Assembly (NCBI GenBank): GCA_012064415.1
Contig: SSNU01004331.1
Span: 578,135 to 642,134, forward strand
Length of the DNA stretch: 64,000 nucleotides
Direction: 5' to 3'
DNA from: Gyrodactylus bullatarudis
Taxonomy: Eukaryota; Platyhelminthes; Monogenea; Gyrodactylidea; Gyrodactylidae
Part shown: one piece after another, positions 1,672-60,425 of the stretch
Layout: the number at the start of each line of letters is the position of its first letter
Position numbering within the stretch: the stretch's first letter is position 1
Program-made: the position numbers and the translations under genes
The notes under the pieces: generated by a model
What the model was told of the DNA's origin: nothing
The model's database searches: none
The model's input: only the letters and a program-made list of their open reading frames with translations

Positions 1672-4600
1672 ATGGAAGAAGAGTATGATTGTCCAGCTAA
1701 TTATGAGGGCACTGAAATTAATCCTGATGGCCAGAATCATCAGAACAATGACTCGCCCCAACCTCTTACCTCTTATTCATTCGATGGGATACTAGATTTC
1801 CTACAAAATGAATGGGCTAAAATGAATCTGGCCAGATCTCAGTGGTCTAATGAGAAGATGGAATATCAAATGAAGATTGGTTACCTTCAGAATGAAGTTA
1901 AACTACAAGAAAATCTCAAAAGAGATCTTGTACGTCGTATTAAAATGCTGGAATATGCTTTGAAACAAGAAAGACTGAAATCCAAAGGGACATCTTCTAC
2001 GACATCACTGAAAGATGATAACTTGGTTAAGGGTCAAGACCACCATACAGACAACGTTTTGAACATTTCTTCCAACTTTTCCGAGAATAACTCTACTTCT
2101 ACATTCAAAACAAATGCCGAAACAATACTCAGACGTACTAAGTTGACTGAAAACTCCGGATGGGATTCTTATGACAAGTCTGCCGCTTGTGAAAAGGATA
2201 TGCTCGATGCTATTGGAGAGTTGGACATGTTAGTTTCTAGTCATATGACGGATATTGATGATGATATCTCCAAAGAGGCCACGGACGAAGAGTTGAACGA
2301 TACACGATTAGTTAACAAATACAAGGAAATATACAGGATTGATTCCAGAGGCGGTGGTACGATCGGAAAGAATCGTAATCTGAAAACGACAAAGTACCTT
2401 TTAGCTAAAACGAAAAATACAAACATCTCCCTAGATAATAACAATCAGATTGATAATCAAAATGGAGGCTTCCTCCTCACTGATTCACTGGACAAGGTCG
2501 ACGAATCGAATATTAGCAGATTAAATAGTGAGTCTATCCCCTTTCAAATTGCCCTAATATTTTTTCTTGTTTCTCATCACAGCCTCTCCATTCCTTAGAT
2601 AATAATAATTTTGATTTGAAAAACACTGTGCCTTCATCATCCTCTCTGGGCGACCTAGCATCCCTTTCCCTAGCGAATAATGAAAATCAGACTACTCCCA
2701 CTGATGATGAGTGTTTAAAGTTTAACAGAAAAAAATCTCCTCCCAGAAATATTGATGAACTAGAGGAGCCCTCAGCAAAGTGCCTTTCAACCCAAAAGAA
2801 TAATAATACCAGTAAAAATAATAGTTTATCTTCTTCAATATCAAGTTGTGATTCAATTCAGTCTGTCATTGTGAGTTTTTTTTATCCAGTTAAAAATAAT
2901 TATTCTCAAATCATTAATTTCTCTAATGATCAGTGAAATAATAATAATCTAGGCTCATTTATTCTTAAACTATATTGTGCTTCAACTTGATTGGTGTTGT
3001 TGGAAATTTCTACTTTTCTCGTCAAAATTACTAACTATCTATAGAGTAGAGTTTGTGGTGGAATAGACAAGAATTTTCTGTCTTTACTTCTCCACTCACT
3101 CACTCACTCATCCATCTAGGTGATGAACATATTCTCACTTGAATCATTTCTCAAGTTTTAATTACATGTATGATCATTATCGATCTGGATCTTGAGAATA
3201 ATGCCTCTTGTGTAACAGATGCAAATGAAACACCTGCTTATACACACTGTTTACTAAACAGTGTTTAGTAGGATAACCTCTTTTTGAAATATAATATTAA
3301 AATAGTTTTTGCAGTTAACAAAAACATCCAGACGTCTCTAAAAAATTAACCCTTTTATATTCGTAGCAAATTTATAAATTTGACCATGAATGATTAGATA
3401 AACAATTAGGATATTAAAACTTTTATTTTGAAACATATTTAAACCATCAAAATTTTGTATAAATTTCAAGATATGATAAATTATAGCCAAATTATTATAG
3501 GAATTTATATAGCTGATATCTATTAATTTAACTCCAAAAAATTTGATTTTTGCCAGCACTGTTTAACTCTACTCCAAGTCTTGATGATTATCTTATTACT
3601 AATTAATTGTTCCTTTTAGGAATTAGAACCATGTGTAAGCTGGGCGCCAAAATATTCTCTAAGAAATCACTTTGATGGTGTTAGATCGGTCATGTTCCAT
3701 CCAAGTGAAAACATGGTCATTTCCTCTGGGGAAGATTGCACGGTGAAAGTTTGGAATTTAGATCGTACATTGTCTGGAAGGAAATCCAAGAATCTCGACG
3801 TTGAACCCATTTACTCTTTCAGGGGTCATTTATCCCCAATATTATCTCAATTGATTATTCCATTTAGTCAACCAATTAGCGTTAAAAAAATCAATCTCCC
3901 TCCCTCCACTAATGATAATGGGAAGAAGGATCAAGGGACTAATTCACCTGATGAAAAGCCATACATTGAAAATCTACCCTGTAGTCATGTCATCCTCTCT
4001 GGTGATCTTGACGGCCATTTACGCACATGGTGTCTCCCTGATGATATCAACAATTCGATTGAGTTGTTTGAACCATTCAACTACAACCTTATTGGGCCCA
4101 TCCACAAGATGGCTGACTCCATCTGGTCCATTATTCAATTGGAGGTGAGCAATTTCATTACATTCACCTCTGTGCTCTTCCAAGTTGAGACCATCAATCT
4201 CTTGATGTTTTCTAGTTTTACATGATGGCTCATATTCTACTCTCTCTATCTCTCTCTCTCTTTGATAATCTTTCTGCATGCATATATATAGATGGATATA
4301 TTGATTGTGATCACCTTCTCTTCAGTACCATATTCATATACTATATTTATACTTATACTTTAATAATGTAGTATTGGTAGTAATTTTTATTATTCAAATT
4401 GCAGTAGTAAAAGTGATGAGAATTTAGAGAAAAAAATCCATCATGCTTACTACCACCAAAATAGTACTAGCTTACTTTACTTTGGTTTATATGGAATATT
4501 GATTTAAAAAAATTATTTTGTATTTTTATAAATACTACAGTTGAGGGCTTATCTCTTTTCCTGCTTCTTCCTCCCTCGCCTTTTATACATGTATAGAATC

Positions 4601-7589
4601 AAATTGATGACATTGGGAGGCTTGCTTTTCTTTCTTTTACTTCCTTAACCCTTGCAGGGCCATGGTCCATGTGTGGGCCAAAGCATCAAGCCTAAAATTT
4701 TCTGTAAAAATAAAGATCCTATAACTTAAAGTTACACACCATTAGATAACCATAGAATTCTCAGTCATTCGTCATCCAAACGTTTCTACGGTGATTGTAC
4801 CACTGAATAAGACGTGTTAAGAGAATCACCACCGGAACGCTCTAATGCATTAAAAGAATTCTTGAAATTTTTTCGAGCGGTCGGTTGAAAGTAGATAGAG
4901 AAAATTTATAGAAAAGTATTCATTCTGATTCCGAATACCAGTATCCATATACATCAGTAACTTAAGTCATTAAATAGACTCAGTCCCTGATCTATAAAAT
5001 TCTCATGATTATAATAATATGTAATAGATAGAATAGATTCAGACTTCAGATCTCCTACTTTATGGGTCAATACACTCTTTTGTTTGGGGCCTTATAGTAA
5101 AAATGAAGTATTTTTTCACGTGTTGAGAAAGTAAAATTCTGCATTTCCATTCTTCTTCTACTATAGATTTTATCAACTCATGATGAAAGTTGGTTCCCAT
5201 CTATGAACCTTATCATTGTCATCTGTATTAGAAAACTTGTTAAATTATTGAAAAATTTCAATGTTGTATTTAAATAAAACATTTTATATATATTAGAGTA
5301 GGCCAAATTTTTCAACTTTTCCCAGCCTTAATCTCATCTTCAAGATTATTGAAAACTAGGCATTTTTTCCTATAAAACCATACGTCTTGGAGTTTCTTCT
5401 AATATACAAAATCTCGATTGAAGATGACAATTTTTAAACACGCGCCAAGATTTTTTCAATGAATTTCACTACGAGAAAGGACAAAATTGAGGTTTTTGAA
5501 TATTTTGTGGAAAATTTTGAATAAAAATAGGGCTTTTAGTAGAAATTGAGTTTTCTCAACATGCTGAAAGAAAGTCCTAAGAAATTGGGTAAATTTTGAT
5601 GATTTTTTGGGAAATGGGATTTTTGTATATCAGAAAATGAACAATTTTCAAAAATGTGTTTTTCATGGTTAAATAATCAATTTTTGATTAAAGCATAGAG
5701 CATTGTTCGGGGAAAATAAAATTATGTATTACATATGTAAAAATTTCAACTTTTCAGTCATCCAATTTGATTGCCAGCATCTCCTCCTCTTGCCAATTAT
5801 CCCTTTTCTCAAAGCCTTCCTTATTCACTTGGATAAGTGAACATCAGACAGCTATAGCCATCTCGAAACCCTCTACTGCCTACATTAAGCCAATATTGAA
5901 TATTGATCTTTGCAAGACATGTCCTGAAGTATACGGCAGGCCAACTGTCCTCCTACCAGTAGATAATCATAACACACACTCAATAATTGTTGGCTTCACT
6001 TCAGGTGACTTTGCTCAAATCGATTGTGGAACTGGTACTTTAACAAGATCTTTTAAAATTGGTAAGTCATCTCTCTATTTGCTTGATTGTAATCATGTCC
6101 TTTCTCTCTCTCTTCAATTTTAAATGCTCTATGTGTGAATACTCTTTTACAATTTGTACCCAGTTTGATAATCTACCTTTGCGCTCAAGTCAACTATGCC
6201 ATGCATGCTAGAATACTTTTTATAATGATTTCATGTGTGTCCTCTCTCATACAAACACACTCACATGTTCAAACTATTCTCCTCCTCTTTTTCTACTCAT
6301 GGAAAAAGGTCTCATCTACTTGCCATACACAAACACGTGACCCCTCTCTACACACACAATGTGTATACATACAATGGTATTTAATTGAAGAATATTCTTT
6401 CCTTCTTTCATTGCAAATTAACCACAACCCAAAATTCTTTCTCTCTCTCTCTCTTATACTATGGACATTTTATTAGTAATCAATACTTGTTACAGAGTTG
6501 TGCTTCCATTATTGAGACTACTCATTACTATTTACCCTATTAACTTGTTATTCCCTTTTGCTCAAATCTCAAAACCTCCTCTCCTTAATTAACCAAGAAA
6601 TTCCAGTGTATCAGTTCTCGGCTACCTTTTACTCCCATAGTTAATAATTAGAGCTGCCAAATTTTGGAATAAAATTTCATTAGAAATGGCATATTACGGG
6701 GCAAATTACTGACTGATTTGATTTAACGAAATTTTGAACGAAAACAGATCATCATCCCCATCCATAGTGAATTTTACCATTAAAGTTTCAATAAAAAGCT
6801 CAAGTTTTTCATTCATTTGAGCCAATCAGAATTAGGTAAAAAAACACATTTGAATAAAGCCTAATACCTTCAATAAATTCAATCTATATTTTCACCATTT
6901 TTAAACTTATTTTCCTCTCTTAGAATTCAATTTTTGTGATGCATGTTTTTTACTTATTTTTAATTTTTTACCCGAACATTGTAGGATATGCAAATTCTGA
7001 GCTTAGATTTGGAATCCGTATTAAAATGAAAGTTGGTAAAAATACTTTTATTTTACCCCCAATGTAATTATTGTATAAATAATAATTATTATTATTCAGT
7101 AATAGTTGAATTAACTAACTCTCAACCATGTCAATTTCAGACGACAACGGGATAATTGACAAGCTATCCTGCTCTCCTTATTCACCCGCCATTGTCAACT
7201 GTATGGCAGCAACCAATTCAACTGGCTCCCAATTTGTTTCTGGCCATGACGACATGAACATTCGCTTCTGGGATATTACACGAACAAATCCATTAATCAA
7301 ATCAGTCAAAGCTCATAAAGACAGTGTCACTGCCATCGCCACAAACCAAAGCAATCCCTCTCAGATATGTACCGGTTCTCATGACTCTCTCTTGAAAATA
7401 TACCGCACTGAAACCTATGAATGTCTCCAGGAGATTGCTTCCCACAAGAAGAAATTCAATGAAGCAATTCATGGGGTTGCCTTTCATCCGAAAAAGATGC
7501 TCCTCGCCTCATGTGGAGCTGATTCTCTCGTCAGGGTCTTCATTCGTGGTGATATCTCCTCGAACCTGTCCTCTTCCCAGAAAGACTGA
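1672..7589 (+). CDS. STRN: Striatin / connector of kinase to AP-1 (STRIPAK scaffold), 5 exons
   Basis: Striatins are regulatory B-subunits of PP2A and the scaffold of the STRIPAK phosphatase-kinase complex, which opposes Hippo/MST kinases. Exons: 1672-2527, 2599-2870, 3620-4144, 5758-6061, 7141-7589. They sum to 2406 nt and give 801 aa with every junction in phase; human striatin is 780 aa. Residues 35-48 (YSFDGILDFLQNEW) match the caveolin-binding segment. Residues 49-105 form the PP2A-binding coiled coil, with the near-invariant DLVRRIKMLEYALKQER. A Ser/Asn-rich linker runs to about residue 376. The WD40 propeller fills the rest (HFDGVRSVMFHPSENMV, LDVEPIYSFRGH, VSGHDDMNIRFWDI, TGSHDSLLKIYR, HKKKFNEAIHGVAFHP). 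The 2871-3619, 4145-5757 and 6062-7140 introns are long and AT-rich; the first intron is 71 nt. In arthropods the orthologue is called Cka. Confidence 0.95.
4145..5757. other. Striatin intron 3, containing dispersed repeat R1
   Basis: This 1.6-kb intron has a GTGAGC donor and a TTTTCAG acceptor. From about 5292 to 5660 it carries an AT-rich dispersed repeat that also occurs at 35736-36100 and, shortened, at 58380-58540 and more weakly near 18.4 and 29.4 kb. Diagnostic words are TTAGAGTAGGCC, CACGCGCCAAGATTTTTTC and GAATAAAAATAGGGCT. I see no coding potential. Confidence 0.6.
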
Positions 7590-18500: not shown

Positions 18501-21500
18501 CACTATATGATCTTTTTGAATAGGATTTTCAATTCAAATTATTTTATCAAATATATTCTGAAAACACCCTGAAAAAATCTGGTCAATTTAGGAAGAATTA
18601 ATGATTTTAGGGAAAATGGGAAATGGCATATAAGAAGATGAAAATTTAGTTTTCGAAAACGAATTTATTCGAAGCATGAAATAGAAAAGTGTTTGGGAAA
18701 AGAAAGAAAATGGTTCTTCTCATATATATTTGTAGTAAAAATATTTCTTACTTAAGACTCTGTAAGGACACAGAGAGGGGTTTGTATCGAAAATCAAAGA
18801 AAGAGAATCGCCTATAGTTCATAATCATGCTTTCAAATCTATCAAATTGGAATGATATATAACTTTAGAATAGGCTTTAGTAGAGCTCAGATACACGAAA
18901 TAAAAGTACAATTGGAAAAAATCTCTCTTTTAATAGACTGCACATTCCTCTTCCGATCAAATCATGAGAGAGATGAAAATGTGTATAATTTTTAGGTGAA
19001 ACAGATAAACAATCCATTAGATGGCCTCCTTCTTTTGTAAGGCTTCCATGTCAACATTTATTCATGCCACTGGTCATAAATCACAGAGAAAATTTCCAGG
19101 ATTTCATCACGTATCATCTACACTAATCACCTTAGATTTGGTAACATTTGGTGGAAAGTGAGAGAAAGAAATAAAAGAAGTTGTCTCTTTGCAGAAAGTA
19201 CAGCAAGGAAAGCATGAATGATCTCTTTTGTCTTCAGCCTTGAACTTACTTTCTTGATAGCTTTCAAGTGAAGGGGTAGGAAAAACAAAAGAAATTTCTT
19301 CACATTATTTTGACAACCAAGAGACAATGAACACAAATAATACACTAGAACACCTTTAAAATGTTTTTACAATGGAATCTTGATCCACAAATTTTTCTTG
19401 CTATTTTCAGATCTGTAATTATTTTTTGTTTGTTTTTTGAGACAAGTTGAGAATTAAAAAGTAACTCAGTCTAGCAAAATAAATTTTTTTTCATTTTTAC
19501 AATTCTAAAAAATAACAGAAATATTCTACGAAAGATTCTCCATAAATTGTCCCCCCAACTATTATAGCTTCGCTCTAAAATTTTGAAGCTGTTAGAGATT
19601 TTTCTTGCATTGAAATGTGTGAAAATGGCTGAAATTTAGGATTATTAAGATCACAGTTGATCAAGAAACTCAAATTTACTAGATCTGATCTAATGGCTCA
19701 TCTCGCTATCGTTTGGGAAGAGAATTCTCAGGGATGAATTTATTCAAGACTTACCTTATTGTAAGGGATTCCGTTAAGAAGAAAGGAACTTCGTAAACTG
19801 GACACATTCCCAGGCCCACTGGGAATAGCTTGAGTAGAGTCGATAAATAACGGAGTCGAACCGGCATAATTGAAGAAGCCAGTCTGATTATTGGCAGAGT
19901 TGGGAAATAGTTGGAAATTTCCACCAGATGTTGGTGGACAAAAGAGAATGTTCGATTGACCCTGTGACCAGCCTAGTCCTAAACTTGGATCAATTTGAGA
20001 GGCATTCTGGCCAGTGAAATCCCCAGATTGCAAAAAGAGTGGTATGAGACTCTGAAAGTTTTGCGAGTCAACTGTTCCCCCTCCGTTGGTTGGGTTTGAG
20101 GCGAGATATTGACTGTACTCTTCCGAAGGACTTGATTGTGGGGGAGTTTGATGTTGAGAATTGGCAGTGTTATTCAATGACTGAGATGTGGGGACTGTAG
20201 AGGCTAGAGCTCCTGTCGTGGGATATATCTGATATTGATTGGTCTGATGATTTTGACCAGAGGATGGAGTAATCTCATCGATATTCTCCAGAGCATTTGA
20301 CCCCGTAGCCACTGGTACCATCACTATTTGTCCAGTTATCTTGATTAAAAGTAATATGAGTTTTGACTCTGTTGTGGGATTGAGTTTATCATGGTCTACC
20401 ATAAAATGTAGTCTAATCAGGAGTAACTCGATAATTAACCCTTTAGACCTCAATGTAGTTCATAAATGTGGGAAAGGTGACTTTCTAATTTATTAACCCC
20501 TTCTCTGAAGAAGATTCTAAATTAAGATTTTCAAATTCAGCAGTTATCTTGAATAAATTTAGGGTTGAATCTTAGACATTTAATCTTTAACCTACTTGAT
20601 TATAAAAGTAGAGAATTTGTGACTGATTAGCCGCATGGATAGTTGCGGTGGTCGATGTCATATCAAAGGCAGAATTCGGTGAAGTTTTTGTTTTATTTTG
20701 ATTACTCTGTGGTTGTAAGGGATTAGATGGGCTAGACATTTTAGTTAAACTGGTAAAACCTTTCTGAGATCTCGTGTAGTCCTCTTCATCTGATTGGATC
20801 TTTTTAACACCTTTTCTCTCGTCATTCCCATCGGAAGAGGCTTCCTTTGAATCTAGAAGAAAAGGATATCAGGATTGAAGATGATAATATTACTGGTCTT
20901 TCCACATAAAAGTATGTTAAACAATTAACCTACTAGCAAAATCTGGTCACTTGGTTATTACTATATCCATTCAATTCAATTCCGAAAGATAGAGTGAAAT
21001 AATATTCAACTCACGGTGGCAGATGTAGACGAGTTTCGCCATTATTAGAACTCGTCAGTACACCATAGCCAAGATTCGAACGTTGTGAGACAATGCTTCT
21101 AAACCCTAGGCCAAAACCCCCGTTCATCGTCTATTACTCTACACAAAGGTAGTAGGTTCAATGGATGAGTTAAATTTGCAAAAATCAATTAACCAGAAAG
21201 ATGAATCGATGGAGAAACCAAGAGAGAGAGAGAGAGAGAATACCAGTCAATCATGATGAATTAGGAAATAGACAAACGTTAGAGAAAATGAAAAAAGGCA
21301 TGGTCACATATAGCTCATCTCAAATAATAATTAGGCATGAATTATTTATTATGTACTCAACTCCATCTAAAAATAAGATGTGGAGTTGATCTCTCTTCTG
21401 TGTAGATGAACTGGCCGAAAGAGGAGACTAAGAGTTATCTCTCTCTATTCATTCTGCCTACTTTTTCCAACTTTGGGGGAAAGAAAATTACTAGAAGCAG

Positions 21501-24500
21501 TGGTACAGCTCAGAAAATTTTAATGATCAGCTGGAAAATAAGAAGAAAACCAACTGAATATGATGAAAGAATGAATGGATCAATGGAAACGAGAAAAAAG
21601 ATGGATGGGAATTTGTATATAGAAGTTGAAACATAGCTTTCCGCTTAACTAATTTTTCTCCATATTTTTACTTGTAAAAAATATTATTAACTGTAGCAGT
21701 GTAATACAGAGAAGGAAAAAACAACTCTTTTGTCTTATGTTGACATTAGCCTAATGGCTTATACATTACTCAGTAGCATTTCATTTCATTAATAGGTCAA
21801 CGGGTAACTAGTTCATGCCACATTCCTATCGCCCACCCTTGTAGGGTCCACATCTGGCCAAGTAGAAACTATAGTGACTTGATTCTGTATGAACTCTTTA
21901 ACATTCTCGTTCAAGTTAGATTTTCCCAACTAGAGAACTTTGAATTCTCTTTCTGATGATGATTCTGTATCGAATTGCTTTAAATCTATGAAATCGATAA
22001 AAATTATGTTTTCAAATTTTCGAAATGATCTCAACATCTCATTTCCCGTTTTCACTAGTGATTTCCGCCCATTCACTGATTTCCCATATTCACGGTAGCA
22101 AATATATTCTTTTGAGCTGAGCGTTGTACATGGTTGAAAACTTTTGGACTACAAAATAGCCTGAAATATGGAAATTTAGTTTTCTTATGTGTTAACTAGA
22201 AATATTTCGTTCTAGGTGCTTAGGTAATATATCCCACAGGAACGTCTTATTTGGTCGCTTTGTAGTCCAATGTTGAATCAACTTAGATTATTTCTAAATG
22301 CTTTGTGAGTTTCTTTCGTACGAGTCTCGGTGGGATCCATTAGTAAGCTGTAACATTCAGCGATATGGGCTAATCCATTACCAAATAAGGTGTTCCTGTG
22401 GGATATATTACCTAAGCATCTAGAACGTAGTAATAGCTTTATTTAATAATGTGACATCACTTCAAGTTTAATGCATAACAATGGAAACCTATGTCTTCAA
22501 AAGTAAGAGATATCTGAAAGAATGAAATGGAAATGAAAAGAGTAGATAATAATTGTAATTCCCTAATTATAATATCAAAATGCATCTTTCAGAGTCTGAA
22601 GGGAAATCAAAATTTCTAAAATAATGGCAGAGTAGCCCCTTGGCAAAATTGAGAGAGTATGGAAGGAACAATTCTTCTACTCTGTTGTTGAAAGGAAAAT
22701 TGCCCTATGGGAGTCTATTTAGATCCTTCCTACTTACTTACTCTAGTGGTGTAATGTAGCCCTTCAATCCAAGATAACGAGCAAAGTTCAATGTTGAGAA
22801 AATTCAAAGAAAAAGAGTGGAGAGATTGATTGTTTTCAATTCCCATGCCCGAGTGAGAAAGTTTGCACATTTCACTTATTAATTAACCCTTCATGTCCCG
22901 TTGCTCCACCAGTGGAACACAACACTTTCTTGAGCAATAATTTGAACTAAAAGATTCTTAGAATACTTTTTTTCAACTCTCATTAAAATCTATTAAGCTA
23001 CAAAATAGAAGACAAGTCGGCTTTTAAAGAAGAATTCAGATTCAGAATTAGCGTAATTATTTTGTAAATTTTCTCATTTGTGTGATGAAAAAAATTCTGT
23101 TACAGGTTAAAACTTTCAACTTGAATTATGTCAAGCTCGAATGGATAAAAGTAAGTTCTGACTAGTTGTTAGTTTTCCTCCATCGCTTCAACTATCATTT
23201 GAGGATGGAATAACCATTGGTTATTAACCAACAAGTGCCTCAAACTACCAAGATACTCTGGTTTAATTCATCTCAAAATTTGGCAAATAAGTTGGCAGAC
23301 AATAGAACATTTTGATTCTGCCTACCCCTATCACATTTAAGCACGAAATTATTTATCTCAAATCGTATTCATAGTCTCATTAAGTTGTTATTGTACGCAT
23401 GATAATTTCAAAATCCATAAACATTCTTTTGCACAATGACTTACAATCAACTCTGGAATTCGAACCATTTGCTAGGGGTGATGAGGAGAGGGCCTCTTTT
23501 GAACTTGTCTCTCCATCAAGGACAGATTCAGTGTCTACACCTGTTTTCTCCGGAGTAACGACAACTCTACAAAAGAGGTTGATATTAGGAATGTATTTTT
23601 AATTTTCAACACAGAGAGGATGTGGAATGGAGTTCTTGACTTACTCATGTTGAGCAGCTTCATCATCCATCAGGTTGAGGCTTCTAATCTTCTGCAAGAA
23701 ATATAGAAATTATGTTTAGAACTTGGATTTAATTTTGTGGAGTCTAATTTATATCAAGAGCTAGCGGTAAGTCTCATGGAGCTGAAATCGAATAAAATTG
23801 AAGGCTGCCTTTCAAGATTGTTTGTGTTCTTTCTGAGCCTCCAAAAAATACCCGAAATATCTTAGTTTCTGGTAAGAAAATATCTAAGATCCAAGGTCCA
23901 AGAAGTACAGACAAAAAAGGCTATAAAAAGTACTCAAAATGTGATGTTTTCCCATGCAGAGATCATGTTATGATTCTTTTAAATAAATCGAACCAAAATA
24001 AGCCTTTTTACAGAGCGATATATGGAAATTACTCCTAGTGGTGATATGAAGGTCGAAGAAAACCACATCTTTGAATATTGAATTCTTTTGTTATGATTTT
24101 AACTGATGAATATTTCCAGTTATCCGGACGTATATGAAAATGTACGAATATTTTTATCTAATAATTATAAAATTTTTCTTTGCAAATTATTTCTAAATTT
24201 TATTTAAACGGACAAGCATTTATTCAAAATACCCAGTCACAGGAAAGAATTAATTTGCTATTATTTTGTTACCTTTAGATAGCTATGTAAAAAGATGTGA
24301 TAAAACCCTTTTTATTATTGAACTAAATTCGTTTTTGACATATGCAAATTTGAGGCCCTGATAATAAAAGAGTATTGGAAAAAATCAATTTTTCTCAAGA
24401 ATTTTCAGGATTGATCTCTTTTGAACTAGTTTGAGATCCAAACAGACGAGAATTTTGTGAAGTAAGTAATAATCAAAAATCAATCTTCAAGATTAAGAGA

Positions 24501-32404: not shown

Positions 32405-32540
32405 TAGCTATAGCTTTATATCCATCCATTTGAACTCTAACTTGATAGAGATTGTCTTCTCACCCCTAAATGTTAGAATTCAGATAAGCAAGTGTCAATT
32501 ACATAAGAGAGTCAAATAATATTCAACTCATGGGTGCAGA

Positions 32541-32583
32541 TGGTGGAGCGTTTCGTCCATATTAGGATTCGTCAGTAAATGTA
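32541..32583 (-). ncRNA. Hammerhead ribozyme motif, copy B1 (degenerate)
   Basis: Minus strand: core CTGACGA, stem II ATCC / TAATAT / GGAC with a mismatched first pair, core GAAA, then CGCTCC where intact copies have CGCGTC. The cleavage triplet and stem III partner are therefore mutated and the copy is predicted inactive. It is the inverted partner of B2. Confidence 0.5.
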
Positions 32584-32611
32584 GTAAGAACTGAGTTCGA
32601 ATTCTGGCTAT

Positions 32612-32654
32612 GGTGTACTGACGAGTCCAAAAAAGGACGAAACGCGTCTACATC
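32612..32654 (+). ncRNA. Hammerhead self-cleaving ribozyme, copy B2 (intact core)
   Basis: Ordered elements: stem I 5' GGTGTA (32612-32617); core CTGACGA (32618-32624); stem II GTCC (32625-32628), loop AAAAAA, GGAC (32635-32638); core GAAA (32639-32642); stem III CGCG; cleavage site TC ending at 32648; stem I 3' TACATC (32649-32654). All conserved type I hammerhead positions (CUGANGA, GAAA, UH at the cut) are present. Stem II is four perfect pairs. Stem I is six pairs with one G-U. Stem III is only two pairs (A-U, C-G) with a 2-nt loop, the form known from satellite/SINE hammerheads that act best as dimers. Predicted cut is after C32648. Confidence 0.85.
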
Positions 32655-32745
32655 TGGTGGTGTGAGTTGAATATATGGAATTGACACTTGCTTATCTGAA
32701 TTCTGTGAGAAGACAATTTCCATCAAGTTAGAGTTCAAATGTAGT

Positions 32746-35700
32746 GATAACCTGTGACCACATTTTGATAGGTTAAAAACGAATTTCAAACTCAAAATTT
32801 AAAAATGACTATCTTTGTTAAAATCATAAATTCACAAATTCATCGAGCATAGCTGTACAGTGTACATATTATTCATTCTTTCTTGCTTGTATAATCTAAC
32901 TTTTACAGTTGCACGGAAAACTATAGATTTTGTAACGTTGATAAGATTCGGCAGATTCATGAAAAGATGTAAATTCTATGTTTGAGACTAGGTTAGTATA
33001 CCACAGTAAGTGACACCATTGTAAGATCAAATTTGTTCTTTAGATACCAAAAAAGTCGAAGGGGTGGGCGGAGGAATATGCTAGAGAATACGATATGCCC
33101 CCTATCTCTCTCCTCTTGAGCATAACTAAAGAAAGAAGACGACCGATCACAATGTTAATAATAAATCTAATAATTTCACGCGATTTAAAATTCTTCATCC
33201 TCTTCTACCATCATTATAGTAACAAAAAGAACCAAACGATAAATGTACACACTTGAGTCATCATCTACACAATACACAGATTGAATAGAATGATAATATT
33301 GCAAAAACTAAATACAAGATGAATTATTTTGATATACAACTCCTCTATAGAGCTGTAGTTAATATTATGAAGAGTCTTGATTGAAGATGAGAATTTATGA
33401 TTATTACAATATTTTCATCAAAAAATCGAATTTGATCGAGATATTTTAGAATCATGAGGCCCACTTTTACGATATGAAAAAGAGAAAACTATCTCTAAGC
33501 CTCGCCCTGGAAATAACAAAAATGTCATAGGAAGATCAATACAAATGCGGTCCACAGGGGGAGGGTTAAGAAAATTATCTCGAGTTAGCGCCAAATTCGA
33601 ATTAATTTTTTGCACTTTGAGTTAACAAATTGATGGTGCATCAAGTTCATACAAGAAAATCAATTATGCTAGATTTGATCTAAGCATTCACCTAATTTTC
33701 GTTTGTGATTTCTTGATCAAGTTGATAACTCAATGAATTTTTCGATAGTTCGAATATAGTGGGTCGAATAGTACGAAAAAATAGGAATTTGACGTAAAAT
33801 TAAAAACTTGAAAAAAGTAAAATTTCAAATTCTTGATGAAAAAATGAAATTTTTGTAAAACTATAAGCCAGGTTTAACGGTTAACCCTCCAAGCTAAAAA
33901 GAAACTAAAATTATTTTATTGAACACTTTTCTGAAAGAAAAATTAATATTCTCTCGAATGAACTATCACTTAACAAGTTACAATATTTTAGTGAGAAGTT
34001 AGGACAATTTAAAAATGACTCGTTTTTGAATAAATAAAGAACCATTCAATGAGATCGATCTAAAGTTGTCACAATATCTTCTCTAAACTAAAGGTGGGTT
34101 TTTGAAAAAATTGCATACTCGGGGCATTCTGAAACCATTTAAAATTTAGAATCTAAGCCGTGTTCCTTAAAAATGTTTTTTCTGAGTCTTTGAGGGTTAA
34201 TAGAAAGCGAGAAGTTGTAAGATGCTTAGTTAGAGAAACCATTTGAGGTGAAAATATATAAATATTTATCAGACAAGAGTGATGTAGATGATGAATGGAT
34301 GATGAAGATTACTTGAGAGAATGTGCTTGTAATTGTGTCAATCAGGAATAATTAATTCAATAGTAATAGTAGTAGTAATACAAGATGTAATAAATAATAA
34401 TATTTATCAAAAGATTATAATTATGTATGAGATATTCACAATAAATGGGTGTGCAGATTTACACCTAGGGAAGGATGCTGATTGATCTCCAAGACGGGAA
34501 ATACGTTGGGTAAGAGAGATACGAGAAGAAATGCATTTCCCCATTCCAACAAGCAGTTCGAAGGCCTTTCCATTTGTGTCCCTAGGATTGTGATGAAAGA
34601 ATGCTTCTCTCCACTTTTGAAGCATTCCAATAATAACTAATAGAAATAAGAGCTCAAGTATACAGTGATGGATGTGTGTTCAATCTGATAGAATAACCCC
34701 GTAGAAAATTTAGTATTGCTCAGAGGATGTAATGGATCAGAGGAATAATAACTATTTATTTTGGCACTTGATGAATGGAGAGAAGTGCCAGGCTTAACGA
34801 GGGAAGCCCTCTTTTTTAAAAATAATAATACTTTTGATTGATTTAATATGTAATGCAAATGGTTACAACTCTCTTGTAGGTCTGAATTTTATCTATATGT
34901 GTAAGCCCCATTATTGCAAATTAGACTATTGTTGTTTTTGTGTATTTTTAAATTCTAAAATTTTCTTATTAATGTAATCGTCCAGCACTTAATACTTACA
35001 AAGTTTATCTACACTTACTTCCTTCTAGGTTCTTAAATAATATACCGAGGTTCGTATAATTTGGTAGTGATTCAGCCCATGTCGCTTAATGTAACAGCTT
35101 TCAAATGGATCCCACCGCGACTAGTTAGAGATAGTATATGTAATCAAGTATGTTTCAAAAAAAGGTCTGAGAGTTTCTTTCGTACTGGTCACGGTATGAT
35201 CCATTTTTAAGCTGTAACATTAAGCGACATGGGATGATTCATTACCAAATAATACGAGCCTCGGGTAAATATTGTTCATAGATAGATGTAGCCTAATAGA
35301 TTTCCTTTCTAAGAAGAGATGTAAAAAAATAATTTTCAGTATAATATTATATCTTTACATGATCACATGGAACCTATTGAGTTAGTTAAGAAAATTCAAA
35401 ACATATTTAGTGTAAATGTTAAAAGATACAAATTTGTTAAATATTTTAGAGGTGGATAAAAGATTAGAATAAATATATTTTCATGGGAAAATTTTCACCC
35501 CTCTTTCCGAATAGTTTTCATTGGCAAATGTAACAAACGATGATGTAACGATTGAGAAATTTAAAGAAAAATCACCCTAATTAGCTTAATAATTTAAGAA
35601 TCTTTATTTGATAAACACGTCTACTTACAAGAATAGTAAGATTCTTTTAACATCTTTCAAGGCCATTTCCTATATGAAGTTAAACCTTGAAAAATTCTGT

Positions 35701-42157: not shown

Positions 42158-43522
42158 CTTGAATTCTCCAAAATATCTTTTCTAGTACAGCATCAGAAAA
42201 TCTTTCGAAACTGTTTAGTTTAATAAATAAATTTATTGGTGAGAAACTTAATGAATTTCCGTCTATTTGCAGAATCCCTTCAAACTTAGTCTCGGAACTT
42301 ATCATGATGACGGTGAGAAATATTGATTTTCGATTTGGTGGATGCTATTTCAAACAAATAGATGGTGTCGCAATGGGAAGTCCAATTGGCCCTTTGCTTG
42401 CTGACTTGATTTTTTGCCTCTCTTGAAGATGAACAGTCTAATCGCTGGTAGCCGCCTGTATGCACGTTATATTGACGATACGTTTTTGGTCCTTGATGGT
42501 AGTAACGATGTTGATGAGATTCTTTCCAACTTGAATGCAATGCACCCAAACATTGGTTTTACAAAGGAAGATGAAAATGACGAGTCGTTAAATTTCCTAG
42601 ATGTTCTCGTGACCAAAAATAATCAGGTTGCCCAAACAAGGATGTACAGGAAAGCTTCGGTTCCATCACAATTCATGCCCTTTCCGAGCTTCAGTCCGGT
42701 GTGCCAGAAGAAGAGTCTGGTTAGAAATGAATGAACACCTATCTTCCGAGGTAAATAAAGCATCTGACAAAGAATTGTTGAAGGAGCTTCTCATGAAAGA
42801 TGGGTACCCTGAAGCATTTATTAACAAACATTCCAATCTGAGAACTAAGGTTGAAAAAGAAGTTGAGGATTTAACTCCTATTTATTTGAAGATTCCATTC
42901 AAAGGTGATGCTGCACACCAGATTTTAAATAACAAGCTGTTCGAAATCACTAAGAAGGCGTTCCCTGGTCATAAACTCAGCATTCTTCCCAAAACAACCA
43001 AGTTGATTCCTGACCTGAACAAAGACCCGATTCCATGGTTGGAAAGAAATGGGGTTATATACCGATTCAAATGTTCTTGTGGCTCGAAGTATGAGGAACA
43101 GACTGTCAGTCCAGTGAAAGTAAGAATTAAGGAACATCTGCAAGTAGGCAACGTCGGTTCAGCGGTCCAAGAGCACCTTTGCAATACAAGTCAGTGACCT
43201 ATTTCAGTATCTTGAACCAAGCCGATCCATGTGTTTCCCGAGCAGTTAGAGAACAAGTCATGTGCAAAGCCGAGGCCCATTACATCAAAACGTTGAAACC
43301 AGACCTCTGCAAGCAGAAAGAATTGGCAACGCAATTAGGTATCGAAGGGAAGAAGCGATTCACACAGAGAAAGAAAATCCAAAAAATTGCTAGATTGCTT
43401 AATGATGGCCCTGTTGCTACCTCAACTCAGAAAGCAGAAACAATTGAGATTGATAACAATTGTGAACAAAAAGAGCAAGTAGTTGAATCTACGTCTCAAT
43501 CAAATCAACTTCAGTTCTAATA
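42158..43522 (+). pseudogene. Penelope-like element: broken reverse transcriptase plus GIY-YIG-type endonuclease
   Basis: Four overlapping frames together cover the C-terminal two-thirds of a Penelope-like (PLE) protein: about 42158-42426, 42414-42734, 42628-43197 and 43179-43522. RT landmarks are KQIDGVAMGSPIGPLLADL (first frame) and ARYIDDTFLV (second frame, catalytic YIDD near 42470). The third frame reads NGVIYRFKCSCGSKYEEQT, the PLE-type linker and GIY-YIG nuclease start (the second YIG is degenerate, YEE). The fourth carries the helix ending AEAHYIKTLKPDLCKQKEL. At least three frameshifts (near 42415, 42680 and 43185) break it, and the 5' part (N-terminal region and early RT motifs) is absent, as is usual for 5'-truncated insertions. 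PLEs are retroelements common in arthropods and other invertebrates. No active product is expected. Confidence 0.88.
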
Positions 43523-43750: not shown

Positions 43751-44880
43751 TATCTCATTGAATTCTGAGAAAATTTTCGAAGATGTTCGGCGTTTTTTCC
43801 CTCTTTGTAATAAATAAATTAATTAATCAAATAAGCTACAATGAGAATATAAAATGAATGGATTTTTTTGAATCCATGCATGTGGTCGAAATTGCAATCA
43901 CCTTGAAATCATCTCGTGAGATAAAAAAGGTTTCTCAAGATCTTTAAGGGTCTTTAAACACTAATCAAACTTGATTTTAGAGTGAATTGATGAAATAAAT
44001 TTGTTATGTTGTAGAGACCTGGGGAGGATAAGAACTTTGAAAATGAAGAAAGTGGACCCTGCTTTACTTTTACAGATGTGAAATACAAAAAGCTCAATCT
44101 ATGCAAGTGCTCAAATAGTGCTTCAATAGATATTTTCTTCTCGATTTGCTTCTGTATTTCGAATAGAAATTTCGTTTGACATCACTCTTACTTTGGCGAC
44201 ATGTAATTAAATGACAGCAAGACTAAATTAAATAATCCATTAATTCTGATGGCCAATAGCATAAACTGCCCCCTCCCTCCCTCCCCTTCTCTAAGATAAA
44301 ATTAATCTTGGGAATATTCAACTCAAGATGTTTTTTTAAATTAAAGAACCACTCACTCCGCCTTGCTATATAGAAAGATGGATGGGATTCGTTGTAGTTA
44401 ATTAAATGATCCTGTCATAATATAATGGATATTTTCCCATTTAATAATGCTACGGTGTCATCTTCAGATGTGTAAGCACAGTTGGTGTACGACACAAAAG
44501 AGCTGGATACAGATTACCTTTTCTTATCAGCATGATACACGAGTCATGAGTCATTTCTGGGAAGAGATGATGGAAATAGACATGATGTCATTAACAATAA
44601 ATATCACTTGATAATAAAAGAATCGTCAATATTTATGGTTATGGCCTAAATAGACCATTTATTGAAATTTAAAAATGTCACAATTTCAACCAGATTTTTA
44701 AACAAGAAGATATATTGACTTACCTGAAATATCAAGGTATTCTTTCTTTATTATAATCTTTCTGATTCTGGTTTCCCTGAATCTATTCAGTCAACCGACA
44801 GTTCGTCCTGCTGAAAATTTAAATTATCAAAATTAAAATACTTTTTGTTAATAAGCACAATGTAGAAATTACAGTGTTTT

Positions 44881-45250
44881 TAGACATTAAACCTACTAGC
44901 AAAATGTGGTCGCAGGTTATTACTATATCATGTGAAACTAACTTGATGGTGATTGTCTTCTCACCCCTAAATGTTAGAATTCAGATAAGCAAGTGTCAAT
45001 TACATAAGAGAGTCAAATAATATTCAACTCATGGGTGCAGATGGTGGAGCGTTTCGTCCATATTAGGACTCGTCATAACACCATAGCCAGGATTCGAACC
45101 CAGGTCTTCAAAATTGTGAGGCAACGCTTGTAATCACTTGCTTATCTGAATTCTGACATCTAGGTGTGAGAAGACAATCACCATCAAGTTAGATTCACAA
45201 GGATATAGTAATAACCAGTGACCACATTTTGCTAGTAGGTTTAATGTCTA
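44881..45250. mobile_element. Palindromic hammerhead-SINE element, copy C (about 120-bp terminal inverted repeats)
   Basis: The ends TAGACATTAAACCTACTAGC (44881) and GCTAGTAGGTTTAATGTCTA (ending 45250) are exact mirrors. Pairing continues about 120 bp inward with few mismatches (for example GATGGTGATTGTCTTCTCAC). The centre holds, on the minus strand, a SINE head with a perfect B box (GGTTCGAATCC, 45090-45100) and a hammerhead at 45040-45082. The structure is two SINE tails facing outward with a single head, a reduced version of the 32.4-kb dimer. Confidence 0.7.
45040..45082 (-). ncRNA. Hammerhead ribozyme motif, copy C (core mutated)
   Basis: Minus strand: GGTGTT, then ATGACGA where the consensus is CTGANGA, a perfect stem II GTCC / TAATAT / GGAC, GAAA, then CGCTCC in place of CGCGTC. 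It shares the CGCTCC change with B1, so the two derive from one mutated lineage. Predicted inactive. Confidence 0.55.
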
Positions 45251-46951
45251 AGATACTTTGTATTCGCTATAGATTGCTAGAAGAGATCTCAGTTTTTGAG
45301 CCTTGATAATCTGATGCCACTAAAAAGGGGGAGGGGAGGTTAATGAGAGACCAGAGTGTGATCAAGTCATGGGATCATGATACGAAAATTAATTAAATTC
45401 ATTTTAAAATACCCCCACCCCTTCCTTCCCATCTACAATATCTCTATCAGCAATTACAATAACGATTCTTTAATGAAATGTGTAACTTTGAATGGATCAG
45501 TTCTCAATTCGTTTGTTCGGACATGCCTAAAGATTAGGAGAATTGCCTTACCTAGAAAAAAACCTCTCTCTCCACCACACTTGAAATGCTAATGGAAAAA
45601 TTTCAATAATCCCCTATTTTAATTTCATCCTTACACTTTGTCCAAGGCAGAAAATCTTTCTAGTTTCCTCCAATATTCCCTTGCAATTGTTTCAGTGTTT
45701 TTCTTGCTTGCTTGCTTCCTTGCATGCCTGCTTACATAGAAAATTAATCTTCATTTTTGCTTAATCTATTTTTTTATATCAAATAAGGAAAAAAGTTTGA
45801 GTCAATCAGTGGATTAGACTTCTAAAATCTCTAGAGAACATGAGAAAGTCTTGAAAGTGAAAATCTTGAATTCTTTGGTTGAAATGGAATTTTTATATAA
45901 AATTGCATCGTTAGACGTGGATTCAACTTGATACTCAAAAATGATATTTCAATTAATTATCGTACAAAACTTTAAATTAGAAATTTTGAAACTCATCTCT
46001 AATGTTAATGATACAATACCAATTATTTCAATGATTAAAAATAAAATTATGATTCCTCCACCCCTTATGGATGGAAGGGGAACATTACAGAATAGAAAGT
46101 TTTCTTTTTACTCATTACAATCCTGTTTGAGAGTAAAAAGTAAAAAAAGTTTAGCTGAGAGAAATGATCCCCTTTTGAAGGGCAAGCAGAGGAGAGAACG
46201 AGAGAGACAGTGAAATATTTCTTGTCACGAAAGTCAGGCCAATTTATATGCTACTATAAATTTTCATTAAAAGGAAATGTGTCTTTGTGCCTGAGGTTGG
46301 ATTGTGTGTTTTGTAGATGACTGGAAATGGTAGAGAGAGGGAGGCGGGGGTTGAGTGAGATCATATACTGTAGTTGGAAATAATAAAAGAACACACATAG
46401 AGAACAGAGTATTGGTACCAGTTTTTTTGGTAGAAAGAAGAAAACAATGCATTTTTATGTGTCTAGGAGTATATTCCTTTCAGCATAAAAAATGCTACTT
46501 GAGAAGACTAAAAATTCAATCACTCAAAATGAAGAGTGAGTTTTGTATAGCTGAGCTGTTTTCCTCTGTTTCTTCAGTAGTTGAGAAAAAACAAATGAAC
46601 AGTAGAAAAGGGAGAAGATGTGTTTTTATTCCATCTTTATGGTAGTAAGAGACACAAACCGAGTGGAGAATTTAATGAAATTAATCAAAGAAAGACTCTT
46701 CAGATCTCCCTCTCAATAAATATAACTCTGAACATCTGAATGGAATGCTACAACCACATACACACACGCACACACACAATCTGTGTGTATAGTCTACACA
46801 ACATAGATAAATGGGGAACTGCATTTGTTGGTGAAATGGAATGAGACACTCAAATGTATAGTGTGGACTGCCAAAATTGCTGGACAGTATTCACTTTACA
46901 TTATAAATAATAATGATAATAACTCAAAAATATATTTGAATATATATCAGG

Positions 46952-53248: not shown

Positions 53249-54407
53249 GTATTGCAAATTTCTTAGAGATGGGAAATTCGAGTCTTGAATAAAAACAATT
53301 TGCTATCCATGACAATTGAGAACAAATTTCGATCAATTTCCTTCTTGTTAAAAATGATAAATGACATTTAATTTTATAGGGAAAATAGACACTTTCTTGT
53401 TTCTCGAGTCATTCACACTGCAAAAGAAACGTATATAAGCACCAATGGAATGAACCAAGAAGTTGAATAACACAACAAACACAGCGCATAGCTGTAGGAG
53501 AGAGCAATCTCAAAACTACTTCCACTCCATTAAGTGAAGCTAAGATTTTTATTTATTGCAAAATTCAGTTACACACACAAAATGAGGAAGCAAGAGGGAA
53601 CTGGGAGTAGAGAGAGATAGATTTTTAATTCCTCTGGGATGAATAAATTTTTTGGATAACTCAAAAAATACTGCTCAATAGACTGAACTTACATTGTATT
53701 GGGAATATGGTTTAGTGTACAATGCCAGTCTGTTATTATTATTATTATTGGTTATTAATGCAACATAAGTCTTGAGAGGTTTCTTGAGAAATTTAACCCT
53801 TAATTTAATTAGTCACTTTTTCTAGTGATGATTCTAGATCTGATCAAAAAAGAAAATCAGGATAGGTATTCTCTGGTGGTGCTAAATTCAGGTTCGCGTA
53901 TACCCACTTGCTGAGGTCGGAAGAAAAGATCAAATAGATTTTGATTTGTAAAGTCAAGGCTGGCATTTGAGTAGAAGAGCAAGAGAGAATTATTTTCTTT
54001 CCTTTTCTACTAGCTGAAGAGTTGGTCTTAAATCAATCAGATGACTACGTCAGCTTAAATCATGTCGATGGAATTAATCTTGGATATTTGCGTGCTCATC
54101 CCACATAGTCCCACACACCACCCACTCTCATGAGCTGGGTTGTAATAAAGGCAAAAGTAAAATTTATAGAAAAGAAAAGAAAGACAAGAGGAGTTAACTC
54201 AAGAGGAAATTGGAAAATAATAAATATTGGATGATTATTTTATAGACGAATATTTAATAATATTCTTTTCTTCAAAATATTCAATCTTTCCAATGTGATT
54301 TAATCAAATGGAGAATGGATTAGATGAATAGGAAAATTGAGAACTCTTATTGAAGTAGTTTAATATAGTTGAATACTAATGAATAGTGCAGCACCTATAC
54401 TTACAAA
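53249..54407. other. Gene-free stretch
   Basis: AT-rich; a TTA microsatellite near 53733-53748. Nothing coding or structured was recognised. Confidence 0.4.
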
Positions 54408-54786
54408 GGTTGCTAGAATTATTTCGTTCTAGTTGCTTAGGTAATATATCCCTCAGGAACGCCTTATTTGATAATGGATTAGCCCATGTCGCTAAATGTT
54501 ACAGCTTACTAATGGATCCCACCGAGACTGGTACGAAAAAAAATCACAAAGCATTTAGAAATAATCCAAGTCCTCATTTGGACTAGTCAGTATGCCACAA
54601 CCTGGGACCTAGGATCTCTCGCATTGTAGTCCAATGCTCAATCCACTCGTCCAACATCCCATGCAACTCGGATTATTTCTATATGCTCTGGCGTACCCTA
54701 AGGTTTTTCTAACTAATGCATGGTGCAGCATCTATACTTACAAAGGTTACTATTTCGTTCTAGGTGCTTACGTAATAAATCCCACA
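54408..54786. mobile_element. M2-type MITE sequence with nested tRNA-SINE copy
   Basis: The left piece (ATTTCGTTCTAGTTGCTTAG, ATATATCCCTCAGGAACG) and the interior (TTAGCCCATGTCGCTAAATG, GGATCCCACCGAGACT) match the 22.2-kb M2 copy in rearranged order. An eroded SINE head (54567-54655) sits inside. A second M2 terminus at 54742-54786 ends directly against the LINE scrap. Confidence 0.55.
54567..54655 (-). mobile_element. tRNA-derived SINE head with broken hammerhead (copy E)
   Basis: The minus strand begins GTTGGACGAGTGGATTGAGC (A-box-like TGGACGAGTGG) and continues through AGGTCCCAGGTTGTGGC (B-box position, eroded). It then reads GCATA, CTGACTA, GTCC, AAATGA, GGAC. This is the hammerhead 5' half with stem II intact, but G-to-T in the core and no GAAA afterwards. 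It is the most eroded copy of the family. Confidence 0.55.
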
Positions 54787-54942
54787 GTTGAATACTGCTT
54801 TACAGTATGGAATCCCGAATGGGATAAATGGTCAAAGAAAATCCAGACTACATATGAAAGATTCATACGCCGACTCTCAACCACATTCCAGACCGACCTG
54901 AAATTACCTAAAAACTTTTCAAGACTAAGAAAAGAGAGTTAA
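54787..54942 (+). pseudogene. LINE reverse-transcriptase C-terminal scrap
   Basis: The frame reads VEYCFTVWNPEWDKWSKKIQ then TTYERFIRRLS, which matches the 'leY...vW.P....ie.iQr.ftr.i' block after the RT domain of Jockey/CR1-type LINEs. It is followed by NFSRLRKES and a stop. A non-coding relative of the last part lies at about 57315-57395. Only about 50 codons remain. Confidence 0.6.
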
Positions 54943-59880: not shown

Positions 59881-60140
59881 ATAGTGCATTTTAGTTACGA
59901 GCTTTGAAGATATATCTTTTTGATAAATTGAACTTAATAAAGAAAGATAAGCTGTAGTAATTTTAAATTCTAAAGTAAATTTTCCCTGAGTTTATATGTA
60001 TTTTTGATGACGAGGGATAAGTGCTTAAGTCTTTTAGTATAATTGGATGCGGAGAAGTCACACATATTCCCTTAAACATAAGACTCAGCGTGTATCTAAT
60101 TTATAAGCTAGTAAAAGAAACAATTCAAACAAGTATGGCA

Positions 60141-60183
60141 GGTATAGACGCGTTTCGTCCTTATTGAGACTCCTCAGTATACC
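60141..60183 (-). ncRNA. Hammerhead self-cleaving ribozyme, copy D (intact core, perfect stem I)
   Basis: Minus strand elements: stem I 5' GGTATA; core CTGAGGA (CTGANGA with N=G); stem II GTCT / CAATAA / GGAC (three Watson-Crick pairs and one G-U); core GAAA; stem III CGCG; cleavage site TC; stem I 3' TATACC. Stem I is six perfect Watson-Crick pairs. Compared with B2 (GGTGTA/TACATC), one pair changes G-C to A-U on both sides and another changes G-U to G-C, so structure is kept while sequence drifts. Predicted cut is just 5' of TATACC. Confidence 0.85.
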
Positions 60184-60243
60184 GTAGCCGAGAATCGAAC
60201 CAGGGTCATGAGGATTGTGATTAGCCCACTGGACCAACTCCCC
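60141..60243 (-). mobile_element. tRNA-derived SINE with hammerhead, copy D
   Basis: The minus strand starts GGGGAGTTGGTCCAGTGGGC with A box TGGTCCAGTGG (60226-60236), then B box GGTTCGATTCT (60191-60201), correctly spaced for an internal RNA polymerase III promoter. The tRNA-like part ends just before the hammerhead at 60183. The tail downstream of the ribozyme differs from copies A-C (no GCTAGTAGGTT word), so this is a separate subfamily or the tail lies outside recognisable bounds. The tRNA-like 5' half folds only partly, as expected for a SINE head rather than a tRNA gene. Confidence 0.75.
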
Positions 60244-60425
60244 ATGTCTATCATATTTCTTTACAAATTGATAGATTAGATATACTCCCTTTGCACCCTT
60301 AGATATAACCCTGGTTATATATTTTATTTTTTAAGTATTTTAGATACTTAATTATTTTTTATATGTATTTTTGATGACGAGGGATAAGTGCTTAAGTCTT
60401 TTAGTGTAATTGGATGCTGAGAAGT

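Follow-up and report, generated by a model that had tools for sequence, protein, structure and literature searches.

The closest described systems to the element reported here are the SMalpha SINE-like sequences of schistosomes, the metazoan retrozymes and the Penelope-like elements (PLEs). Passages of PMC2770079 describe elements derived from tRNA-Gln-TTG that are similar to SMalpha. For the retrozymes, Cervera & de la Pena (2020; excerpts of PMC7229834) regarded PLEs as ‘a strong candidate’ for the mobilisation of metazoan members, because PLEs and retrozymes both carry type I hammerheads, both occur in tandem and co-exist; according to excerpts of PMC7761336, the repeats of metazoan retrozymes contain no conserved motif from which the partner enzyme could be deduced. 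PLEs themselves are described in excerpts of PMC3846280 with head-to-head pLTRs, target-site duplications (TSDs) of 8–10 bp and a 31-bp tail that one of the two inverted pLTRs may carry, an arrangement that has been explained by two internal start sites together with cutting of both strands (PMC11167929). Among the open-licence papers searched, most of them at the level of listings, none was found to report PLE-type ends or insertion-level evidence in hammerhead elements.

We analysed a hammerhead ribozyme within a stretch of 64,000 nt (the window) and searched the 77.3-Mb genome assembly (471 contigs) for its relatives.

The hammerhead at 32612–32654 and its surroundings

The preliminary description of this DNA claimed a hammerhead with every conserved position, a 4-bp stem II, a 6-bp stem I and a cut site, and all of these were found where it had put them. 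The core reads CTGACGA and GAAA, the 4-bp stem II pairs GUCC with GGAC, the 6-bp stem I contains one G.U pair, and the cut site is GUC. The Rfam hammerhead type I model, proposed there as a check, matched over its full length (model positions 1–45 of 45) at a score just under the gathering score of 34. The features of the locus are as follows.

32612..32654 (+): type I hammerhead, matched by Rfam RF00163 (33.2 bits, E 2e-4); cut predicted after C32648
32595..32603 (+): B-box-like GTTCGAATT, left over from a tRNA-like head; read from the sequence, head positions 42–74 of 74 aligning at 32586–32617
32536..32575 (−): mirrored hammerhead in the opposite arm; stem II AUCC/GGAC, one pair broken
32424..32771 (unstranded): whole head-to-head fold-back copy of family B; tail arms 32424–32530 (−) and 32674–32771 (+)

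A perfect-core pattern, CTGANGAGTCCN{4,8}GGACGAAACG, gave 247 exact matches in the genome (121 + 126), against 0 for the reversed pattern. In parallel, RF00163 placed 29 of 73 scored candidates above the gathering score, the best at 45.2 bits, the 73 having been scored out of 11180 first-look candidates. These two results exclude chance, and the observation of a real hammerhead at 32612–32654(+) is confirmed.

The locus is an inverted repeat, with arms at 32419–32463/32705–32749, 32475–32505/32674–32704 and 32519–32577/32616–32674, and a short piece of tRNA-like head lies between the two hammerheads. Only positions 42–74 of the head align, the A-box half being absent. The inverted repeat, the mirrored hammerhead on the minus strand and the lost A-box half had all gone unmentioned in the preliminary description. 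Comparison of the flanks gave no convincing target duplication for this fold-back.

It had been argued that the ribozyme adjoins a B box, so that a pol III transcript would carry it. The B-box-like sequence is indeed present, and in the family the head stands directly 5′ of the ribozyme; this copy, however, has no A box, and its own pol III promoter is therefore incomplete. Likewise, the phrase ‘intact hammerhead inside a tRNA-SINE’ suits the family, with its lead, head, hammerhead and tail, but not this copy, which is folded back, carries a mirrored hammerhead and lacks the A-box half. In folding predictions the two arms pair with each other at −76.0 kcal/mol, versus −39.0 kcal/mol when the hammerhead stems are forced. 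The upstream inverted arm would pair with the ribozyme and mask it, and on these energies the copy is likely to be silent even if transcribed through. Having lost its A-box half, and with a ribozyme masked by the mirrored arm, it is probably inert. It is a single copy, decayed and folded back, of a non-autonomous flatworm retroelement, a tRNA-headed, hammerhead-bearing SINE or retrozyme.

Further copies in the window were placed by module alignment, unless otherwise indicated.

20917..21118 (−): family B copy; tail, hammerhead, tRNA-like head
22191..22432 (unstranded): family A tail fold-back without hammerhead
34976..35273 (unstranded): family A tail fold-back without hammerhead
44846..45251 (−): second family B fold-back; its long end lies on the left and its short end on the right, with an imperfect 12-bp duplication, ATACTTTTTGTT/ATACTTTGTATT, 10/12
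54378..54787 (−): family A copy exceeding unit length, with tail, lead, tRNA-like head, part of a hammerhead and a further tail
60137..60245 (−): copy combining a third head with a third tail; hammerhead of 24.9 bits at 60142–60182, far edge set by eye from the tRNA-like head

Around the last of these, a direct repeat of ~64 bp (59994–60057 and 60361–60425, by eye) encloses ~300 bp including the third-family hammerhead copy; it is too long to be the 12-bp duplication discussed below. Elsewhere in the window, pieces of a striatin-like WD-repeat gene were recognised by eye at 1672–7589.

Modules of the family across the genome

The unit consists of a lead, a tRNA-like head, the hammerhead and a tail, in that order; it is non-coding and ~375 nt long, as summed from the modules. 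Two main families, A and B, differ in their heads and tails and have the ribozyme core in common, and the element is a compact example of module shuffling, with one ribozyme and at least three heads and tails. The tails are the families' own, as had been claimed. The suggestion of an undescribed ribozyme SINE stands in part: the fusion of a tRNA-like head with a type I hammerhead is already known, as the SMalpha plan in the same phylum, but the palindromic, Penelope-type insertion of the copies is new.

The hammerhead loop is mostly AAAAGA in family A and mostly TAATAA in family B, to which the 32612–32654 copy belongs. Pairs 3 and 4 of stem I are kept between the families by double changes (C-G/U-A and A-U/G-C). 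Counted pair by pair, stem I is paired in no more than 22 to 33 of the 36 distinct variants, and many copies have decayed through loss of stem I pairs. Stem III of family B is formed by the loopless 6-nt palindrome ACGCGU, and a family B monomer would therefore be without a proper stem III. Two-strand folding predicted a double hammerhead for family A at −30.1 kcal/mol, compared with −16.0 kcal/mol for two monomers; for family B and for the 32612–32654 copy, the predicted dimer uses other pairs.

The heads were aligned to 20 of the 33 tRNA genes reported for the genome. Head B scored 23.0 against an Arg-CCT-like tRNA and head A 21.5 against a Ser-CGA-like tRNA, where the Arg and Ser names are those we presume from the anticodons. 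Both scores lay above those of all 200 shuffles, which keep single-base composition only (maximum 15.5), and above all 71 GTTCRA control sites in the window. The tRNA model RF00005 gave no match up to E 5 in nine loci, and ARAGORN called a tRNA in one of 15, which indicates that the heads are degenerate. At the level of the family, a tRNA-like head with putative A and B boxes lies directly 5′ of the ribozyme.

Copies longer than one unit, in which tail, lead, head, ribozyme and tail follow each other across a direct tail–lead junction, were seen at four of 50 loci (L046, L055, L098 and L100); at L098 an 11-bp duplication encloses ~530 nt. There were no direct tandem arrays among the first 100 of the 247 places, where the six neighbour pairs closer than 1 kb were all head-to-head.

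The mitochondrial code of the same genome was read from COX1, which opens with TGA as Trp. Against a solved COX1, over three of five alignment blocks, the three AAA codons fall at N, N and D and never at K, ATA at I in 6 of 17 cases and at M in 0, AGA at S in 4 of 4, and TGA at W in 6 of 9. As aligned, this usage fits NCBI table 9, the code used by flatworms and echinoderms, and together with the size of the genome we take it to point to a flatworm. A nematode origin was rejected on the codon usage; a search for the SL1 spliced leader also gave no match, a result that carries little weight by itself because the controls gave none either.

Fold-backs, duplications and ends of hammerhead SINEs and Penelope-like elements

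Insertions were examined in a sample of 50 loci taken in contig order (L039–L068 and L082–L101; 32 of family B, 18 of family A), in which L045 and L046 are a single place viewed from both sides. Modules were chained across gaps of at most 90 nt upstream and 60 nt downstream. Head-to-head inverted arms were found at 23 of the 50 loci (22 places), and tail-to-tail arms within 60 nt at none; L087 has an inverted neighbour copy whose distance from its last chained module, ~175 nt on the downstream side, exceeds the 60-nt limit. Four places were omitted from the sample (C126:154122, C130:203938, C138:154048 and C146:149244, corresponding to L034, L027, L032 and L030), and since L030, L032 and L034 are head-to-head, the figure of 23 is if anything low.

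Duplications of at least 9 bp flank 13 of the 50 loci (12 places), versus 19 of 977 mismatched flank pairs. Seven are 12 bp long, three 11 bp, two 13 bp and one 9 bp; the other 37 loci are without a duplication of this length. At eight fold-back places a single direct duplication of 11–13 bp encloses the whole palindrome, and the outer flanks are not inverted repeats in seven of these eight, L066 having a 34-bp inverted match. The palindrome therefore entered in one piece and is no artefact of assembly. PiggyBac-like TTAA ends, first considered for L002, were rejected on the grounds that the duplications are 11–13 bp and the ends variable. At L050, seen by eye, the right flank repeats ~70 bp of the left flank directly, the left stretch lying well away from the element end.

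The element ends fall into a short class and a class longer by ~30–40 nt. One long and one short end were paired in 25 of 32 fold-backs, where 16 would be expected (p=0.001); the cut-off of 57 of 76–78 was set after the distribution had been seen, an earlier count used three classes, and the 32 end pairs come from 77 loci (88 before de-duplication), including 38 picked by score. The seven exceptions comprise four short/short and three long/long pairs.

The genome is dense in PLEs, several of them with long open frames. The copy in the window is a fragment.

42628..43197 (+): PLE ORF fragment of 189 aa; 152 genome-wide matches, up to 91% to other copies

Pfam gave no match for this fragment. 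Open frames of 784–807 aa were found at L075, L078 and L080; Pfam recognised an RVT_1 domain in L075 and L078, the two scanned, and the GIY-YIG part was recognised by eye and not by Pfam. All seven PLE copies compared carry the minimal PLE hammerhead, L102 and L107 being nearly alike, and L070 alone among four copies inspected reads GAGA for GAAA. The minimal pattern has 1286 matches in the genome (606 + 680) against 0 when reversed. At L080 (62–864), an inverted repeat of ~800 bp (94.8% over 808) has been inserted into a PLE copy that is otherwise open, within its 3′ region.

Among the first 100 of the 1286 matches, PLE hammerheads with a neighbour closer than 1 kb form four head-to-head, three same-direction and no tail-to-tail pairs. 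The PLE 3′ ends are bimodal among the 44 matches listed, with 29 at query positions 164–171, 13 at 127–133 and two elsewhere. All five head-to-head PLE pairs among the matches listed have unequal ends, although at C307 the shorter end falls between the two classes, at position 140. Exact 12-bp duplications flank three of these five pairs and the other two are without one. In 25 of 32 fold-backs of the hammerhead SINEs, one inverted end carries the optional 30–40-bp tail and the other does not, and the PLE pairs have unequal ends in five of five; the SINE duplications, 11–13 bp in 12 of 13 loci, are equal in length to the 12 bp of the PLEs of the same genome. Duplication length, head-to-head arms and one long and one short end are, as read from the sequences, probably a Penelope-like mark on the hammerhead SINE insertions.

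It might instead be supposed that these are plain SMalpha-type SINEs moved by a LINE, with the inverted copies produced as 5′ inversions by twin priming. A tRNA-like head joined to a type I hammerhead is just what SMalpha has, and duplications of 11–13 bp also lie within the usual LINE range. However, a 5′ inversion by a LINE turns round the 5′ portion of one copy, whereas in the present fold-backs the 3′ tail recurs in the inverted arm up to, or almost up to, its end. Furthermore, we know of no LINE with one long and one short end, and no common poly(A) tail was seen by eye at 15 boundaries inspected. We consider mobilisation by a LINE unlikely.

The junctions of the fold-backs bear on a further alternative, a TIR/MITE-type DNA transposon that carries the hammerhead by chance and whose terminal inverted repeats are the inverted arms. 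Long inverted repeats with flanking duplications are what such an element would show. Yet by module coordinates the junctions differ in 31 of 32 fold-backs (a hand-made list of 22 from the 50-locus sample together with L001–L007, L012, L017 and L019), with L019 and L084 nearly coinciding, so fixed ends with a fixed interior were not found; the two ends are moreover mostly unequal, and single 5′-truncated copies with duplications exist (L063, L064 and L088). A DNA transposon is accordingly very improbable. The differing junctions indicate that the palindromes mostly arise anew at each insertion. Arms of the same copy resemble each other more (mean similarity 0.95–0.96) than arms of different copies (0.90–0.91), but in no more than 14 of 25 cases is an arm closest to its own partner, which would suit both fold-back of one template and joining of two templates.

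Hammerhead sequence on each strand, present at seven of the 50 loci (six places) and whole in four of these places, would also suit a retrozyme that replicates from RNA to RNA like a viroid, using hammerheads of both polarities and leaving DNA copies as by-products. A second hammerhead is, however, what a fold-back at insertion would leave: mirrored hammerhead sequence occurs in seven of the 23 head-to-head loci and is truncated or absent in the other fold-backs, and we give the viroid-like alternative very little credence. Least probable of all are inverted chimeras of sequencing or amplification, since, even if the genomes of small animals are sometimes amplified and at L049, by eye, the DNA flanking a single hammerhead copy is itself duplicated in inverted orientation with the copy at its tip, eight palindromes sit within one direct duplication each, seven of them between flanks that are not inverted.

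Mobilisation and relation to known systems

A tRNA-headed hammerhead SINE or retrozyme inserted by a PLE-type reverse transcriptase/endonuclease is the best overall explanation of the data, and we put its probability at roughly three in four. Module order, end classes, duplications and fold-backs can all be read from the DNA. A more detailed proposal, which we favour with somewhat less confidence, is that the SINEs live off the PLEs: a pol III-type hammerhead RNA would serve as template for the Penelope protein, and two internal starts with cutting of both strands would write fresh palindromes with unequal ends.

We infer pol III transcription, cleavage as a dimer, a circular or multimeric template and priming by a Penelope RNP. 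Pol III would read from the tRNA-like head through the ribozyme and the tail. The ribozyme would cut multimers into ~375-nt units, possibly in dimeric form with the palindromic ACGCGU or ACGCGCGU supplying stem III, and circles may form from these units. A Penelope-like reverse transcriptase/GIY-YIG endonuclease would then open AT-rich DNA with a 12-bp stagger, copying would start at either of two tail sites ~30–40 nt apart, and the cDNA would fold back, or meet another cDNA made from the opposite strand, with a palindrome as the outcome.

The SINE modules showed no significant similarity to the 3′ ends of seven PLE copies by blastn (best E 0.017). On this result a tail in common with the PLEs sampled was rejected, which weakens the case for a PLE partner, as do the seven exceptions among the 32 end pairs. 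Stretches of L055 and L017 match L078 and L075; by eye, these resemble a neighbouring repeat and a nested family A piece past the PLE ends.

A PLE partner for retrozymes was proposed earlier on indirect grounds (excerpts of PMC7229834), and the insertion-level evidence on the mobilising enzyme is new here. If the proposal is true, the same mobilisation by PLEs could hold for animal retrozymes and for SMalpha, which would settle who mobilises them. The question of the PLE partner becomes testable in other genomes, through ends and duplications, and in vitro with purified PLE protein.

Among described systems, the W-elements of Schistosoma mansoni (PMC8490949) likewise belong to a flatworm and contain hammerheads, some of them with activity in vitro, but unlike the element here they are satellite-like repeats. 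SMalpha and Sjalpha, the schistosome SINE-like elements, share with it a type I hammerhead, tRNA-derived sequence and the flatworm phylum (excerpts of PMC2770079 and PMC8490949). More than 10,000 SMalpha copies are cited in PMC2770079, against 247 perfect cores here, the two being counted differently. The heads here are closest to Arg- and Ser-type tRNAs among the 20 compared, and head-to-head palindromic insertions with Penelope-type ends go unmentioned for SMalpha in the passages of PMC2770079.

The metazoan non-LTR retrozymes (excerpts of PMC7229834) also carry a type I hammerhead and are non-coding, with co-existing PLEs, and the ~375-nt unit falls within their 150–450 bp. Direct tandem repeats are their hallmark, whereas here there were none among the first 100 of 247 places and only four of 50 loci exceed one unit. 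In addition, the element has a tRNA-like head, whereas retrozymes are seemingly without promoters (excerpts of PMC7761336).

The element is not an autonomous PLE with an RT and GIY-YIG ORF and a minimal hammerhead: the unit is too short for such an ORF, none is present, and the hammerhead is canonical. With the PLEs as described in PMC11167929 and excerpts of PMC3846280, it nevertheless shares head-to-head inverted copies, an optional tail of 30–40 bp on one end and short duplications.
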